64,000 nucleotides of DNA from a bacterium. Its GTDB lineage: Bacteria; Oederibacteriota; JAAXVQ01; JAUVAV01. Below are positions 5,594-62,517 of the stretch, one piece after another. The DNA is taken from the NCBI GenBank assembly GCA_021108215.1, contig JAIORK010000028.1, forward strand, positions 62,001 through 126,000, given 5' to 3'. Position numbers and translations under genes: made by a program. How positions within the stretch are numbered: the first letter of the stretch is position 1; every line of letters starts with the position of its first letter. A model generated the notes under the pieces. That model was not told where the DNA came from. It made no database searches and saw only the letters and a list, made by a program, of their open reading frames with translations.

Positions 5594-5878
5594 CTAAACA
5601 ATCCTCACCTGTAATTTCTTTCCCAGTGCCAAAGCAACTTTTTCCAGAGTCGAGAGCTTGATGTCTTCCGCGTGATTCTCAATTCTGGATATTGCTGTCT
5701 TTTGCGTGTGCAATTTCTTGGCAAGCTCATCCTGGGACAACCCGGCTTGTTCCCGCGCCATTTTCAGAATGACCCCGATTTTGAATTCCTGATAGCCGCT
5801 TTCATAATTCAAAGCAAAACTTTTATCCCTTTTTTTGCGTTTGGAGGTATATTTTTGTAAATCACTCATGGCCATCAT
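5594..5878 (-). CDS. HigA-like antitoxin, XRE helix-turn-helix
   Basis: A 94-residue protein whose C-terminal half is a Cro/C1-type helix-turn-helix (residues about 32-86: LKMAREQAGLSQDELAKKLH then T-A-I-S-R-I-E-N). It is the second gene of a toxin-antitoxin pair: its ATG overlaps the stop of the upstream toxin by 4 nt (ATGA), so translation is probably coupled. The toxin-first order and RelE/Gp49-type partner are those of HigBA-like modules. The antitoxin should bind and neutralise the toxin and repress the shared promoter through its HTH (family knowledge). No operator could be assigned. Confidence 0.85.
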   Translation of the reverse strand: MMAMSDLQKYTSKRKKRDKSFALNYESGYQEFKIGVILKMAREQAGLSQDELAKKLHTQKTAISRIENHAEDIKLSTLEKVALALGKKLQVRIV

Positions 5879-6273
5879 CTCTTTTCCTTAAAATATTCCT
5901 GCTTCATTTTCTCTGCCCTGTGAATCTCTTGTTTTGATAATTTTTGTGTCTTCTTCATAATGCCATGCGTGAGAATAACATTATTACGGTCCCAAAAAGC
6001 AAACACCCTGTAGATGTTATTCCCGACTTTTATCCTGCACTCCCAAATACCCTTCGTTGCAGTGAGCTTCTTGAAATACTGCCTGGGAATAACCGGTAAA
6101 TCTTCAATAAGATTCAATACCCAGACGACTTTCTTTGCTGTTTTTGCCGGAAGAGTCTCCAGAAAATCCTCAACCGGACAATGATTCTTGAATCGGTAAA
6201 AACCCACAGACCGAACCGGCTTATTTTCTATGTTAACTTGCATGTTAACCTTTGTCAAGGTGTGTTTTGCCAT
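5875..6273 (-). CDS. HigB-like toxin, RelE/ParE superfamily (Gp49 type)
   Basis: A 132-residue protein of the phage-derived Gp49-like/RelE fold. Visible features are an N-terminal helical segment (F-L-E-T-L-P-A-K-T-A-K-K), a central K-K-L-T-A-T-K-G-I-W-E-C-R-I-K strand region, the Y-R-V-F-A-F-W strand pair, and the C-terminal H-G-I-M-K-K-T-Q-K-L helix typical of the family. Such toxins are usually ribosome-dependent mRNA endonucleases (family knowledge). AAAGGGG lies 6 nt before the ATG at 6273, favouring this start over an internal Met at residue 11. The module looks intact, in contrast to the damaged HigBA locus near 40.8 kb. Confidence 0.85.
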   Translation of the reverse strand: MAKHTLTKVNMQVNIENKPVRSVGFYRFKNHCPVEDFLETLPAKTAKKVVWVLNLIEDLPVIPRQYFKKLTATKGIWECRIKVGNNIYRVFAFWDRNNVILTHGIMKKTQKLSKQEIHRAEKMKQEYFKEKR

Positions 6274-6445: not shown

Positions 6446-6738
6446 GAACCCGGGACGTTGATTAGAACCCGGGACGTTGATTAGTAGAACCCGGGACGTT
6501 GATTAGTATATTAATATAGCACGTCTGGCACCATCTTCTCAGGTATCCAGCAAATCAAAAACAGCTTTTTCCGGCTCCTCTCCCTTTGGCACTGACGTAA
6601 TAGAAGGCTCCTGGGATTCCAGTTCAAAATTGTCTTGGCATATTGTATTTAACTGATAGTAGCGGGTTTTCATTTATTTTTTTTGATTTTCTATACTGAT
6701 ATACTAATCAACGTCCCGGATCCAAACGTCCCGGATCC
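6446..6738. mobile_element. MITE copy 1 with nested, tandemly repeated ends
   Basis: Core element 6490-6720 (231 bp). Left end cccgggacgttgattagtat and the reverse complement of the right end (tccgggacgttgattagtat) match at 19 of 20 positions, and the inverted repeat extends to about 30 bp. No coding sequence lies inside. Two extra copies of the left end abut it (6447-6465, 6466-6487) and an extra right-end fragment follows (6724-6738). Interior sequence is shared with 10671-10905 along the full length and with 9683-9808 along the left half. It fits a non-autonomous miniature inverted-repeat element. No clear target-site duplication is visible. Confidence 0.8.
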
Positions 6739-6834
6739 ACGGATCCCCTCACTATTACGCTATTAACGGCGTGCCTGAATTATATTTCAGTGAAATTTAA
6801 AGGGGACGTAGGGCAAGGGCGTGAATCCCGGTGC

Positions 6835-9549
6835 CTAATGCACCACCGCGATTCTCCGGGTTTCCAGCAACTTCCCGTCTTTGAGCACCCGCAACAGGTA
6901 CACGCCGGCAGCAATATCCGAACAGTCCCAGACCAGCGTCTGTCCCCGGCCGGCTGAAAGCGCGGATCCCACCGAAGCGATGCGCTCTCCGGAGAAATTG
7001 TATATTTCCAATGTGATCTCAGCCGCCGCGTCCAAATGGACGACAAACTTCATTTCCGCATTGGCGGGGTTCGGATACGGCAGCACAAAGCCGCCCTGCA
7101 AATCCACCTGGGCCAGGACATTGGTGGGCGTACAACTTGACGTAGGGGTGGAAGTATACGTGGGTGTGACTGTACTAGTGGGAGTAATGGTTCCGGTCAC
7201 TGTATAGGTGGTTGAAATCGTCGAAGTTGCCGAAATAGTCGGGGTCGCGGTTATGGTCGGCGAATGGGTAAAGGTTGGTATAGTAGTTGGTGTAATCGTA
7301 GGTGTATGCGTGGGAGTGCCGGGCGGAGAAGTGGCTTGTAGGTTCAAGGAAAATTCAGAGGTATTATTAAGCACATCGGTTGCCGTCGCGCAAATATACT
7401 CGCCCACGATATAGCCTCCGGCAGCCAGACTCCACAAACCGGATCCGTTGGCAGTAGCATTCCCCAGGTAGCGGGTACTGCCCCCGTATCCGCCGGGTGT
7501 ATTTTCCGCCGCAAATATTTCCACATAATCTCCAGCTTGAGCTGTACCGGTAATCCCGGCAACTGTGTCGGCCAATCCGACCACAGGTATGTCATAATTT
7601 CCGTTTCCACTGCTGACCAGATAAATGCCTTTATTTACAAAAGCAACAATCGTGTTCCCAAAAATCCCATTGTCAATAGTTGCGGCGCCACTCACCACAA
7701 TCCCGTCATTGGCATTGGCAATCAAGTTACCCACGCCGGTTGCTTTGTTGCCAATCATATTCCCGTGCGCACCGGTGAATAGGTTGATCCCGGCTACCAA
7801 ACCCACGACCGGAGATTGATCCGGAAACACGCCGATCACATTGCCCACCAGGGTATTGCCAAACGTACCCGTATTTTGCAAATTAATTTCTTGTATATTG
7901 TAATTACCTTGGATCATATTCTGAAAACTGTTGAAAAGAACAATGCTTCCGGACCCATTGAGCAAAGGCGCGGTCCCCCCCGCATTACACCCAATATAAT
8001 TTCCGGCAATAACGTGCCCCACACCGCCGCTCATGAATATGCCATCACCATTATTCCCGGAAATGATATTCCTATAATTCGAATTATACCCGCCAAACAA
8101 ACACGGCCCTGCGCCGAAATTAATAAATATTCCGCCATTCTGATTGGCTATGGGAGCGTCTCCATTGGCATTGAGTCCGATTGTGTTTCCCGCAATGGTA
8201 TTGCCCGCGCCCGAGCTCAGGAATATTCCATTGAATTGATTCCCGGAAATTACATTCCCATAGGTGCCCGCATCATTGCGGCCGCCAATCAGGTTGCCGG
8301 AACCGCTAATTACAATACCCGTGTTATTCTGCAAAGCGGAAGTGCCGGTCACATTCGTGCCAATATAATTACCGCAAATGGAATTGCCATTCCCGATCAA
8401 GTAGATTCCACCGTTTGCGCCATTGCCGGATATGATATTGCCTTCCAAATTATCGCGATTGCCTCCAATAAGTGTGTGGTCGGAATCGTTTAGATAAATA
8501 CCATCTCCATTGGTGAAAGAGGCACTGGAGGGATTGGTGCCAATATAATTATTCTGAATGATATTATTTTGCGGTCTGGTGCCGGCAGCCTCCCAGAAAT
8601 TAATGTTGTATGAGGTATTGCCTGCCACAATGTTTTCGTAATTTGCCAGGGACAGTCCGATAGCGTTCCCCTCCAAGGATACGCCCGCAATACCCCGGTT
8701 GTTTGGCACGGCGGTATCCATCGCAAGATTCAGCCCTACAATGTTCCCGGCCACCGTATTGCCGGAGGCTTCAGCATCTTCAAAAACAATACCGTATTGG
8801 GAATGGCCTGATACAATATTACCCAATCCCGCGCTCCGATCACCGCCAATCAAGTTTTCCCGGCCGGCATATATACAAATACCAAAACTTTGCGCTCCCA
8901 ACCCCGCGCTGCCCGCATTATTGAGTCCAATATAATTTCCGGTAATAACATTATGCGAACTGCCGGTGTTGAGCCAAACACCGCCATTGGTATTGTCGGA
9001 AATGATATTACGCGTACTCGCATTATTTCCACCCAGGCTGTTGTAATTACCCATGATATATATCCCATAGTAATTTCCCAAGCCCGTGGTGTCCGCCCAA
9101 TCCGTGCCAATCCGGTTCCCATAAATCATATGGCAATTTGAGTTGCTTTGAATACGAATACCGTAACTACTGTCCACAATAGCCAGGCCGGTAATCGTGC
9201 TTCCCGTCGCCCCGGCATTCAGTTGAAAACAGATTTGCGGACCAAGATTTTCAGCGCCCACCTTTATCTGGTTGCCATGGATATATGCTGGATAAACAAT
9301 GAGTAACGTACTATGAACAGTAATTGAATTGGCGGCCGGATCCAGGGATTGCGCATGCACGAATTGGATGATATCCGGAGCGGTCGTCAGATTGGCCTGC
9401 GCAATACACCACGGCAAAGAACCAGGCACTGAAACACTGGCCACTGGCGTGACGACATTGTAGGTGGCTGCCAGAGCGTTTTGGCATTGCATGAGAAGCA
9501 CAAGACTGAATAAAACCGCTGTTTTCAAAAACAGTTTCCTGGCTCGCAT
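6835..9549 (-). CDS. Secreted right-handed beta-helix protein with Thr/Pro linker and C-terminal sorting-like domain
   Basis: Start taken at the ATG at 9549 (904 aa), preceded by a G-rich ribosome-binding stretch and giving a clean signal peptide (MRARKLFLKTAVLFSLVLLM, then A-L-A); a longer frame to 9609 lacks these. Residues about 110-690 are dense PbH1/NosD-type coils with repeating N-x-I-x-G-N, G-I-x-I/L and N-x-I-G-G-x-N patterns, the signature of a parallel beta-helix. An Ig/carbohydrate-like segment follows. Residues about 755-815 form a Thr/Pro-rich linker, then an 80-residue end (Y-P-N-P-A-N, G-E-R-I-A, W-D-C-S, G-V-Y-L-L-R) matching the type IX sorting-domain/FlgD-Ig fold. No polysaccharide lyase active site was recognised. 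Likely exported and displayed or released at the surface. The gene sits between MITE copies. Confidence 0.85.
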   Translation of the reverse strand: MRARKLFLKTAVLFSLVLLMQCQNALAATYNVVTPVASVSVPGSLPWCIAQANLTTAPDIIQFVHAQSLDPAANSITVHSTLLIVYPAYIHGNQIKVGAENLGPQICFQLNAGATGSTITGLAIVDSSYGIRIQSNSNCHMIYGNRIGTDWADTTGLGNYYGIYIMGNYNSLGGNNASTRNIISDNTNGGVWLNTGSSHNVITGNYIGLNNAGSAGLGAQSFGICIYAGRENLIGGDRSAGLGNIVSGHSQYGIVFEDAEASGNTVAGNIVGLNLAMDTAVPNNRGIAGVSLEGNAIGLSLANYENIVAGNTSYNINFWEAAGTRPQNNIIQNNYIGTNPSSASFTNGDGIYLNDSDHTLIGGNRDNLEGNIISGNGANGGIYLIGNGNSICGNYIGTNVTGTSALQNNTGIVISGSGNLIGGRNDAGTYGNVISGNQFNGIFLSSGAGNTIAGNTIGLNANGDAPIANQNGGIFINFGAGPCLFGGYNSNYRNIISGNNGDGIFMSGGVGHVIAGNYIGCNAGGTAPLLNGSGSIVLFNSFQNMIQGNYNIQEINLQNTGTFGNTLVGNVIGVFPDQSPVVGLVAGINLFTGAHGNMIGNKATGVGNLIANANDGIVVSGAATIDNGIFGNTIVAFVNKGIYLVSSGNGNYDIPVVGLADTVAGITGTAQAGDYVEIFAAENTPGGYGGSTRYLGNATANGSGLWSLAAGGYIVGEYICATATDVLNNTSEFSLNLQATSPPGTPTHTPTITPTTIPTFTHSPTITATPTISATSTISTTYTVTGTITPTSTVTPTYTSTPTSSCTPTNVLAQVDLQGGFVLPYPNPANAEMKFVVHLDAAAEITLEIYNFSGERIASVGSALSAGRGQTLVWDCSDIAAGVYLLRVLKDGKLLETRRIAVVH

Positions 9550-9664
9550 AGTGCCCCCCCCATTAATGAAATCCTGCATTATTGTGACAAACATATTTTC
9601 GGATGGCAAGTTAAAAGCAAGAAGAACAATCAGCGAATAATTTATTATTTGGTTTTTCCGTAAA

Positions 9665-9808
9665 GAACCCGGGACGTTAGAACCCGGGACGTTGATTAGT
9701 ATATTAATATAGCACGTCTGGCACCATCTTCTCAGACATTTGGCAAATCACGAAAAACTTTTTTCCGGATCCTCTCCCTTTGGCACTGACATAATAGAAA
9801 GCTCCGGG
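9665..9808. mobile_element. MITE copy 2, truncated (left half only)
   Basis: Left end intact at 9683 with an extra partial end copy at 9665-9679 (gaacccgggacgtta). It follows the interior of copies 1 and 3 until about 9808, where similarity stops at a G/C-rich hairpin (ctccgggggcaaagtccccc). The right end is missing, so this copy cannot be a complete element. Confidence 0.75.
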
Positions 9809-9937
9809 GGCAAAGTCCCCCTGCTCCCTATGTGCAAGGTGCCGGGGTAATTTCCCTAATAGCATAAAATTCTGTTAGAGTATTAAAATATACATTAGCA
9901 ACTCTATTCACTTAAACCCCGCACCGACAACTCGATT
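9809..9937. other. Non-coding spacer after truncated MITE
   Basis: A short GC hairpin (gggggcaaagtccccc, about 9806-9821), then AT-rich sequence up to the stop of the next gene. No gene supported. Confidence 0.3.
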
Positions 9938-10668: not shown

Positions 10669-10670
10669 AA

Positions 10671-10905
10671 CCCGGGACGTTGATTCGTATATTAATATAG
10701 CACACCTGCCATCATCTTCTCAGGTATCCGGCAATCATGAAGAAATACTTTTTCTCCGGCTCCTCTACCTTTGACACTGACGTGATGGAGGGCTCCGGGG
10801 ATTCCAGTTTAAAATTGTTTTGGTATATTGTATTTAACTGATAGTGGCGGGTTTTCATTTATTTTTTTTGATTTTCTATACTAATATACTAATCAACGTC
10901 CCGGA
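10671..10905. mobile_element. MITE copy 3, complete, inserted at the 3' end of a gene
   Basis: A complete 235-bp copy: left end cccgggacgttgattcgtat, right end ctaatcaacgtcccgga. The interior matches copy 1 over its full length by eye, with scattered substitutions and small indels. Its right end contains the TGA stop (10893-10895) of the adjacent minus-strand gene. Immediately outside lies a 12-bp tandem duplication (gcggcccactag twice, 10911-10934), which encodes a repeated V-G-R-L in that gene. Confidence 0.8.
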
Positions 10906-11354
10906 TTGTGGCGGCCCACTAGGCGGCCCACTAGTTCCTGTACCCGCGCAATGACCATTTGCTGCATTTTGCGCAGGGAGCGAAAAGCCGGCACCATGGC
11001 CAAAAGGGTAACCTCGAAGATAAACACATTTTGCACCAGGCGGGTCCAAAAAGACTGGGAAGCCGGGATGAGCCAGGCCCACACGGCAGAGAGCACGATC
11101 AATGCAACGATACATTGTATCGGAAGGAAATCAACCATACGGGAGAACACTTTGTCCCGCTGGATGAACATGGCGAGTACTTGATTGATGTTCTTGGTGG
11201 GATAAATTTTAGCAAACCGTTCTTTGGCTTGCGCCAAGGTCCATTGCGGCAAGGTCTTGCGGACCACAGCGACCAGTTTGTTGATCAACCAGGTGGCAAC
11301 CGCGGCCACGCCAATGGCAATGGCTGACCAGAGAATGATCTCAGACGCGTTCAT
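10893..11354 (-). CDS. Membrane protein of unknown function whose C-terminus is supplied by a MITE
   Basis: A 153-residue protein with a hydrophobic N-terminal helix (about 6-28), an amphipathic middle (residues 35-75), and two further hydrophobic segments (about 78-100 and 106-125). The C-terminal helix is basic and may be cytoplasmic. The last residues (H-N-P-G-R) and the stop are encoded by the right end of MITE copy 3, so the native C-terminus has probably been replaced. It lies 8 nt downstream of a GT4 glycosyltransferase, suggesting co-transcription and a possible role in envelope glycolipid metabolism (inference). No family recognised. Confidence 0.65.
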   Translation of the reverse strand: MNASEIILWSAIAIGVAAVATWLINKLVAVVRKTLPQWTLAQAKERFAKIYPTKNINQVLAMFIQRDKVFSRMVDFLPIQCIVALIVLSAVWAWLIPASQSFWTRLVQNVFIFEVTLLAMVPAFRSLRKMQQMVIARVQELVGRLVGRHNPGR

Positions 11355-15682: not shown

Positions 15683-15802
15683 TCATTCGGGAGGCCTGTT
15701 TTTCCATGAAAAAACGCACACCAAGGACACATAGGGCCTTGGTCAACAGTATCCGGGTGGAGACAGTACCGATTTTCCTGAAAAAACAGTCCTCCCGAAT
15801 GA
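15683..15802. repeat. 120-bp element with imperfect 21-bp inverted ends
   Basis: Left arm from 15683 (tcattcgggaggcctgtttt) and right arm ending at 15802 (aaaacagtcctcccgaatga) pair with one mismatch across 20 bases. A smaller inverted repeat (ccaagg/ccttgg, 15721-15742) lies inside. No coding capacity. Possibly a second MITE-like family or a large RNA hairpin. Confidence 0.6.
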
Positions 15803-15879: not shown

Positions 15880-16021
15880 AATGGCCGGGTATTACTTTTT
15901 TCTTTTGCACACCGGCACTGTACCAGCGCAACCAAGCAAGCAGGATTATCAAGTCACCTTATTCAAAAAGTCATTCTTCCGACTACGTTTGTGCAAAAGA
16001 AAAAAGTAATACCCGGCCATT
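15880..16021. repeat. 142-bp element with perfect 32-bp inverted repeats
   Basis: The 32 bases at 15880-15911 are the exact reverse complement of 15990-16021 (core ggccgggtattacttttttc), with a 78-bp interior. A perfect 32-bp match is far beyond chance. It ends 17 bp from the stop of the lipoprotein gene. It may be a recently inserted non-autonomous element. It does not resemble the 235-bp MITE. Confidence 0.8.
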
Positions 16022-26610: not shown

Positions 26611-26862
26611 CCTGTCCCTCTATTATCCGCCGATGGATACTGACCATCCGGCGGTTATTCAAACAAAATAAACCAATTCTTTTCATCCACGAATAACACA
26701 AATAAAAAAAATCAAATATTTTAATTAATTCATTTTTTGCCTTTGGGCGGGGGCACCCCGTTCCGCCATTTTACTTTGATGCCTTCACCCTATCCTGTTT
26801 TTAATCTTCTCAGCGTTCTTTGCGTCTCTGCGGTAAAATGCTTTAACTTTATGCTTTTGACC
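26611..26862. repeat. Spacer containing a CTCTGCGGTGAA-family repeat (26776-26836)
   Basis: The stretch 26776-26836 (tcaccctatcctgtttttaa, then tgcgtctctgcggtaaaa) resembles 62356-62415 and 62452-62507. The rest of the gap shows nothing else. Confidence 0.55.
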
Positions 26863-61878: not shown

Positions 61879-61891
61879 TGTCCCCCTCCAT

Positions 61892-62323
61892 TCACCGCAG
61901 AGACGCGGAGCGCGCAGAAAAATTATTGAAATTAACTTCTTTAAAATTATTAACCATTCTTTTAATTCCATTTTTTAAAGTTAAAACATTGAAATTAATT
62001 AGTACTCCTACTTTCAAACCAGTTAGTTTTAAATATGTCAATAATTGTGCTTCATGTATCGGTTCTAATTGTCCAACAGCTTTAAGCTCAACAACCACCA
62101 ACTTCGAAACCACTAAATCAATACGATAACCACAATCCAAGTTGATGGTTTTGTATGAAACCGACAACTCTTTTTGCCGTTCAAAACAACACTTCCGCAA
62201 CATCAATTCATGACACAAACATTCTTCGTATGTTGATTCTAAAAGCCCGGGCCCCAACATCGAATGCACTTCTATCGCTGATCCAATAATTATGTTGGTA
62301 ATATCATTTTCATGACCATTCAT
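61892..62323 (-). CDS. GxxExxY family protein
   Basis: 143 residues with the name-giving motif G-P-G-L-L-E-S-T-Y-E-E-C-L at about 23-36, then I-D-L-V-V-x-K-L-V-V-V-E-L-K-A (a PD-(D/E)xK-like D...E-x-K pattern) and Q-L-L-T-Y-L-K-L. Nuclease-like fold, role unknown; frequent in candidate-phylum genomes. Its C-terminus (S-A-R-S-A-S-L-R) and stop are encoded by a CTCTGCGGTGAA-family repeat. Confidence 0.88.
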   Translation of the reverse strand: MNGHENDITNIIIGSAIEVHSMLGPGLLESTYEECLCHELMLRKCCFERQKELSVSYKTINLDCGYRIDLVVSKLVVVELKAVGQLEPIHEAQLLTYLKLTGLKVGVLINFNVLTLKNGIKRMVNNFKEVNFNNFSARSASLR

Positions 62324-62517
62324 TTCTCACCATAATGCTGAAGATTTTTTTGATTTTCATGCTTTTATCCTAATCATGCCTTTCTCAGCGCCCTCGGCGT
62401 CTCTGCGGTGAATTCCTCGCTCACCGCAGAGTCACAGATATTTTCATGACTTTTATGCCTTTACCCTATTCATGTTTTTCTCTGCGTACTCAGCGCCTCA
62501 GCGGTGAACCCCGTCTT
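62324..62517. repeat. Gap with two CTCTGCGGTGAA-family repeats
   Basis: Copies at about 62356-62415 (cggcgtctctgcggtgaatt) and 62452-62507 (cagcgcctcagcggtgaacc), separated by an inverted short copy (tcaccgcagag). A fourth copy lies at 61886-61921 over the GxxExxY stop. Confidence 0.65.

Follow-up and report, generated by a model that had tools for sequence, protein, structure and literature searches.

Terminus-spanning tandem duplications at the ends of TIRYT elements and their internal-deletion derivatives in an Oederibacteriota genome and in other bacteria

TIRtrons, elements with terminal inverted repeats (TIRs) and TIRYT transposases, were named by Di Nocera et al. 2013 (PMC3733652), and TIRYT was placed in TnpA_REP subclass 2.1.2 by Quentin et al. 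2018 (PMC6006769). According to the accessible portions of these two accounts, the published TIRs occur in solitary, dimeric and grouped forms, and the elements share with those described here a REP-associated Y1 HUH transposase, a DnaA-like C-terminal domain and TIRs with a G-rich motif. The published motif is GGGGWSAS, however, whereas ours is (G)GGGAC[GA], which fits that consensus only in part, and the same portions of the two accounts describe neither direct repeats at 8-nucleotide spacing, nor a 4-nucleotide tag, nor terminal duplications that include flanking DNA. The REPIN clusters of Pseudomonas fluorescens SBW25 (Bertels and Rainey 2011, PMC3116915) resemble our arrays in being tandem repeats that include flank and lie beside RAYT-type elements, but the unit there is a whole REPIN with its flanks, whereas here it is a terminus with about 7 nucleotides of flank. 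Elements of the IS200/IS605 group (IS608, ISDra2) likewise belong to the Y1 superfamily, have an element-specific tetranucleotide beside their ends and make no target duplication; unlike them, with their subterminal hairpins, TIRYT elements have single ends that are unfolded and that together form long inverted repeats. We found neither terminus-spanning duplications nor ends composed of tag, GGGAC and two octamers reported in the openly accessible literature. The element class is already known, whereas its terminal duplications and octamer ends appear to be undescribed in that literature.

The stretch of DNA analysed here (the window, 64,000 nucleotides) contains three copies of one short element (Table 1). 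A full 1.14-kb element is found in the same genome on contig 55 (C55, 79841-81002), where a terminal inverted repeat matching at 27 of 27 positions, GGGACGTTGATTAGTATATCAGTATAG, surrounds an open reading frame of 336 amino acids. The encoded protein matches Y1_Tnp (PF01797, IS200-like HUH; E = 1.4e-14) and the REP-associated tyrosine transposase model NF047646 (E = 2e-21; 76.3 bits versus a cut-off of 80), and carries a C-terminal DnaA-like helix-turn-helix at residues 255-312 (Bac_DnaA_C, PF08299; E = 1.8e-6, just below the Pfam gathering score). Over 156 alignment columns, copy 1 shares 78% identity with the first 155 bp, at the 5' end, of the C55 element (blastn, E = 6e-31), and it keeps the start region of the transposase gene, reading MPRQF*TGIPGAFYYVSAKGRG from window position 6641 where the C55 transposase begins MPRQPRIEIPGVLYHIIARGIER; only this start of the gene is present in the window copies. 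Given the identity to C55 and the retained first codons, we assign copies 1-3, on sequence comparison, to the non-autonomous internal-deletion relatives of a TIRYT (Y1/HUH, TnpA_REP subclass 2.1). The term MITE, used in a preliminary description of the locus, thus holds if taken broadly, although the parent element is of the HUH TIRYT kind and not a classical DDE insertion sequence: a DDE-transposon origin was rejected because the TIRs match a Y1 element and target duplication is absent from the family.

Table 1. Coordinates of the element copies, their terminal inverted repeats and the additional end units in the window
Feature	Coordinates	Strand	Description
Copy 1	6487..6723	-	Internal-deletion TIRYT derivative; transposase-proximal end on right
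Left terminal inverted repeat, copy 1 (gene-distal)	6493..6519	+	GGGACGTTGATTAGTATATTAATATAG; from inverted-repeat search
Right terminal inverted repeat, copy 1 (gene-proximal)	6691..6717	-	GGGACGTTGATTAGTATATCAGTATAG read on - strand; 27/27 identical to the C55 TIR
Outermost extra left-end unit, copy 1	6446..6464	+	GAACCCGGGACGTTGATTA, 19 nt; period 19; outer breakpoint 5-6 nt outside GGG
Second extra left-end unit, copy 1	6465..6486	+	GAACCCGGGACGTTGATTAGTA, 22 nt; period 22
Extra right-end unit, copy 1	6724..6739	-	TGGATCCGGGACGTT on - strand, in tandem with the true end
Flank-only remnant, third degenerate unit right of copy 1	6740..6746	-	CGGATCC on + strand, GGATCCG on - strand
Copy 2	9679..9810 (end approximate)	-	Lacks gene-proximal end; 89% identical to copy 1 over 132 nt
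Extra left-end unit, copy 2	9664..9678	+	AGAACCCGGGACGTT, 15 nt; the end itself starts at 9679
Copy 3	10669..10907	-	Complete derivative with single ends; 89% identical to copy 1 over 238 nt

Several other features of the window were recorded. Directly beside copy 1, at 5594-6273 (- strand), a HigA/HigB-like pair comprising an HTH_3 protein (E = 6e-13) and a Gp49/RelE-like DUF891 protein (E = 1e-18) is a probable toxin-antitoxin module. A gene between copies 1 and 2 (6835-9609, - strand) encodes a beta-helix protein of 924 residues, which carries a Por_Secre_tail sorting domain (E = 5e-7) and is probably a type IX-secreted surface protein. A perfect 32-bp inverted repeat with a 78-nucleotide loop (15880-16021) and a second, 30-bp inverted repeat close by (15683-15802) are unrelated to the GGGACG ends. 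An intergenic repeat of the TTCACCGCAGAGACGC type is present in four copies in both orientations (26807-26842, 61890-61922, 62382-62417 and 62478-62513).

The preliminary description had noted two further end units to the left of copy 1, one partial unit before copy 2 and an extra right-end fragment after copy 1, and all of these are present. The true left end of copy 1 consists of GAACCC (6487-6492) followed by GGGACG from 6493. At its right end the 15-mer AACGTCCCGGATCCA is exactly doubled (6710-6724 and 6725-6739) and followed by a piece made of flank only; the GATCC-GT-GATCC form of this remnant is also found at C34 and C6. The core motif CGGGACGTT has 11 occurrences in the window versus 0.3 expected, a count reached in none of 100 shuffles. 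The extra units are terminus-spanning tandem duplications and not repetitions of the end alone: those in the window start 5-8 nucleotides outside the GGGAC terminus, so that the repeats span the border between host and element, and each unit is a tandem copy of the local flank (about 5-8 nucleotides) together with the first 0-16 nucleotides of the terminus.

An end consists of an element-specific 4-nucleotide tag, an invariant GGGAC and two direct repeats at 8-nucleotide spacing. Inner positions from about 10 to 16 recur at 18-24, with a frequency of matching at spacing 8 of 0.61 versus 0.33 in shuffled sequence (z = 25). No target-site duplication was detected among 59 elements, where the longest flank match was 5 nucleotides and 41 elements lacked any match of at least 3 nucleotides. 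Between the left and right flanks of a given element, similarity is restricted to positions -2 to -4 and is borderline at -1, a pattern that fits an element-specific tetranucleotide such as TTAG or TTTG; the tag itself differs among elements (TTAG, ATCC, GTAG, CTAC and others). Single ends do not fold (mean z of -0.17 over 121 ends). A 64-nucleotide mini-element on contig 50 (C50), in which both ends lie close together, folds into one long hairpin and has duplications at both of its ends.

Three related classes were considered and rejected. IS200/IS605 elements proper share the tetranucleotide and the absence of target duplication, but their subterminal hairpins have no counterpart in the 121 ends folded here. 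In the GTAG REP/RAYT system (groups 2-3) a palindromic REP is preceded by GTAG, whereas the present ends lack a hairpin and their tag is variable. The CGTC-tagged REP families, suggested by the CGTC contained in ACGTCCC, are short hairpins without a transposase, and the ends here do not fold.

GTDB species genomes were scanned for relatives, and the 80 best-scoring ones, which do not form a random sample, were examined; most are from Desulfobacterota, with others from Elusimicrobia, Omnitrophota and further groups. Paired ends starting with GGGAC[GA] were present in 62 of the 80, a count in which the motif itself was used to find the pairs, and the motif was also recovered by an unbiased inverted-repeat search. 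Taking as the measure of duplication the longest exact direct match spanning the terminus, fixed for all ends, we found duplications of at least 8 nucleotides at 32 of 121 ends (62 TIRYT elements from other species), versus 1.6% of flank positions. DDE-type elements, located through their inverted repeats, had none of at least 7 nucleotides at their ends (0/19, versus 36/121 TIRYT ends; Fisher P = 0.0036), and other hairpin-type inverted repeats on the same contigs had none of at least 10 nucleotides (0/40, versus 23/121; P = 0.0012), both control sets being small. Further TIR families starting with GGGACGT exist in the window's own genome and in its relatives; in the own-genome family 2, duplications are found at 6 of 11 ends. 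Arrays also occur in two other genera of the window's phylum, one of them with 10 units, and on the single-contig chromosome NZ_AP021874 (L181). It is hardly conceivable that the arrays are assembly or sequencing artefacts: many of the source genomes are indeed metagenome assemblies, but the arrays in the window are 15-45 bp long and fit within one read, and arrays recur in many unrelated assemblies, that chromosome included.

Some individual loci deserve description. The ten-unit array (L092; G004 contig 330, 9344-9472) is built of GGGACGT plus ATGATTG in units of 14 and 12 nucleotides, and adjoins the apparent end of another insertion sequence near the contig end. On contig 39 (L060, 11401-17432), five family 2 ends lie within 6 kb around a TIRYT gene, and two gene-proximal ends in the same orientation, 140 bp apart and with similar inner sequence, form a possible composite or tandem partial element. 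At about 26% of the TIRYT ends without a detected duplication (L129-L208), a GGG starts 8-11 nucleotides upstream, which may represent decayed units or a target preference.

The flanking part of the units bears on how they arose. All units within one array share one local flank, and the flank differs from site to site: at five family 2 sites the repeated flanks are GGATAC, GAAAC, GGTAC, TACTAC and GTGATAG. It also differs between the two ends of one element, as at L150, where the left end repeats GAAGAAGCCAAGG and the right end GGAAGAATG, and in the C50 mini-element, with TACTAC and ATAAG. The preliminary description had proposed preferred insertion into the element's own ends, and copy 1 does have partial ends in tandem at its left and its right, as nested insertion could leave if an element entered the end of an older one and one of the two bodies was later lost. 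Each array, however, repeats its own local flank, with left differing from right, and neither a second element body nor an orphan partner end was found beside the arrays inspected; preferred insertion is therefore not borne out, and nested insertion is a very improbable origin.

The breakpoints of the units are unequally constrained. The outer breakpoint lies at a median of 7 nucleotides outside GGG (sd 1.9; 35 complete units, 34 in one tally), whereas the inner breakpoint ranges from 0 to 16 nucleotides (sd 4.3), grouping at 0-2 and 5-7 and falling mostly outside the octamer zone. In the 19 units with at least 5 terminal bases, among which short flanks are detectable too, the outer breakpoint is at about 5-8 nucleotides in 16. 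By eye, the outer breakpoints share no dinucleotide, a point against an enzymatic origin; the cleavage site of the TnpA_REP enzymes characterised so far is C|T or CA. Junction microhomology averages 0.91 nucleotides versus 0.73 by chance (P = 0.16), and 11 of the 35 units have at least 2 nucleotides (2-3, often GG).

The main and serious rival to an enzymatic origin is ordinary, transposase-independent replication slippage, also raised in the preliminary description, in which the polymerase halts at the paired terminal repeats or at the G-run and the growing strand re-anneals further back, in some cases through GG or GGG microhomology. Such slippage would explain the 11 units with microhomology of 2 nucleotides or more; several units consist of flank plus one to three G with a GG matching upstream (L140, L158, L174), and large arrays (L174 RE and the ten-unit G004:C330 array) resemble slippage expansion. 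Against it, the other hairpin inverted repeats on the same contigs lack duplications, mean microhomology is at the chance level, single ends do not fold and the outer breakpoint is almost constant. What stands of the earlier suggestion is duplication in place at the ends; the near-fixed outer breakpoint, the chance-level microhomology and the absence of duplications from other inverted repeats favour a process tied to this family over plain slippage, which we consider a possible but rather unlikely sole source.

The content of the units raises another alternative, that selection keeps them because added sites of tag plus GGGACG help the transposase to find or hold the end. The whole 4-nucleotide tag is indeed retained in nearly all units, and GGGACG in many. 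Most units nevertheless have no octamer repeats and so fall short of a complete end, some contain nothing but flank, the number of units ranges from 0 to 10, and duplications that hold local flank would not be inherited on transposition; selection is thus an unlikely explanation.

Known TnpA_REP enzymes act on single-stranded DNA, in which they make a nick on the 5' or the 3' side of the REP structure; the products are a 5'-phosphotyrosine and a 3'-OH able to prime synthesis or to rejoin (PMC8266576). We consider it an even chance that the extra units are made in place by nicking, re-synthesis and rejoining by the transposase at the terminus of the inserted element, with slippage expanding them afterwards. 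The transposase would sit on the two direct octamer repeats and nick the terminal region while it is single-stranded; synthesis from the free 3'-OH would run across the flank, the 4-nucleotide tag and the first element bases, up to the bound octamers; and the new 3' end would resolve the 5'-phosphotyrosine link, so that one unit is added. Nicking close to the border, brief extension and rejoining would yield flank and first bases in tandem, with homology not needed. We propose that the enzyme sets the outer limit of a unit and that the inner limit depends on the distance copied before the occupied octamers are met, while longer arrays would arise as units slip on one another in the ordinary way. 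Both processes probably contribute, the enzyme making the first unit and slippage the later ones. More tentatively, and with rather less than even confidence, we suggest that TIRYT transposases have a side reaction of a distinct kind, which takes place at the hairpin-free termini of their elements (tag, GGGAC and two octamers bound by the DnaA-like domain) and consists of nicking, copying about 7 nucleotides of host flank and the first element bases, and rejoining; its record would be kept at about a quarter of ends.

For TIR-flanked REP-type transposases we found no worked-out mechanism in the openly accessible literature. The duplications would mark the sites of strand breakage and rejoining, and a putative binding site for the DnaA-like domain is indicated by the octamer repeats; with these two leads, the reaction can be tested directly in vitro. 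The arrays also offer a simple way for new short tandem repeats to arise next to mobile elements.
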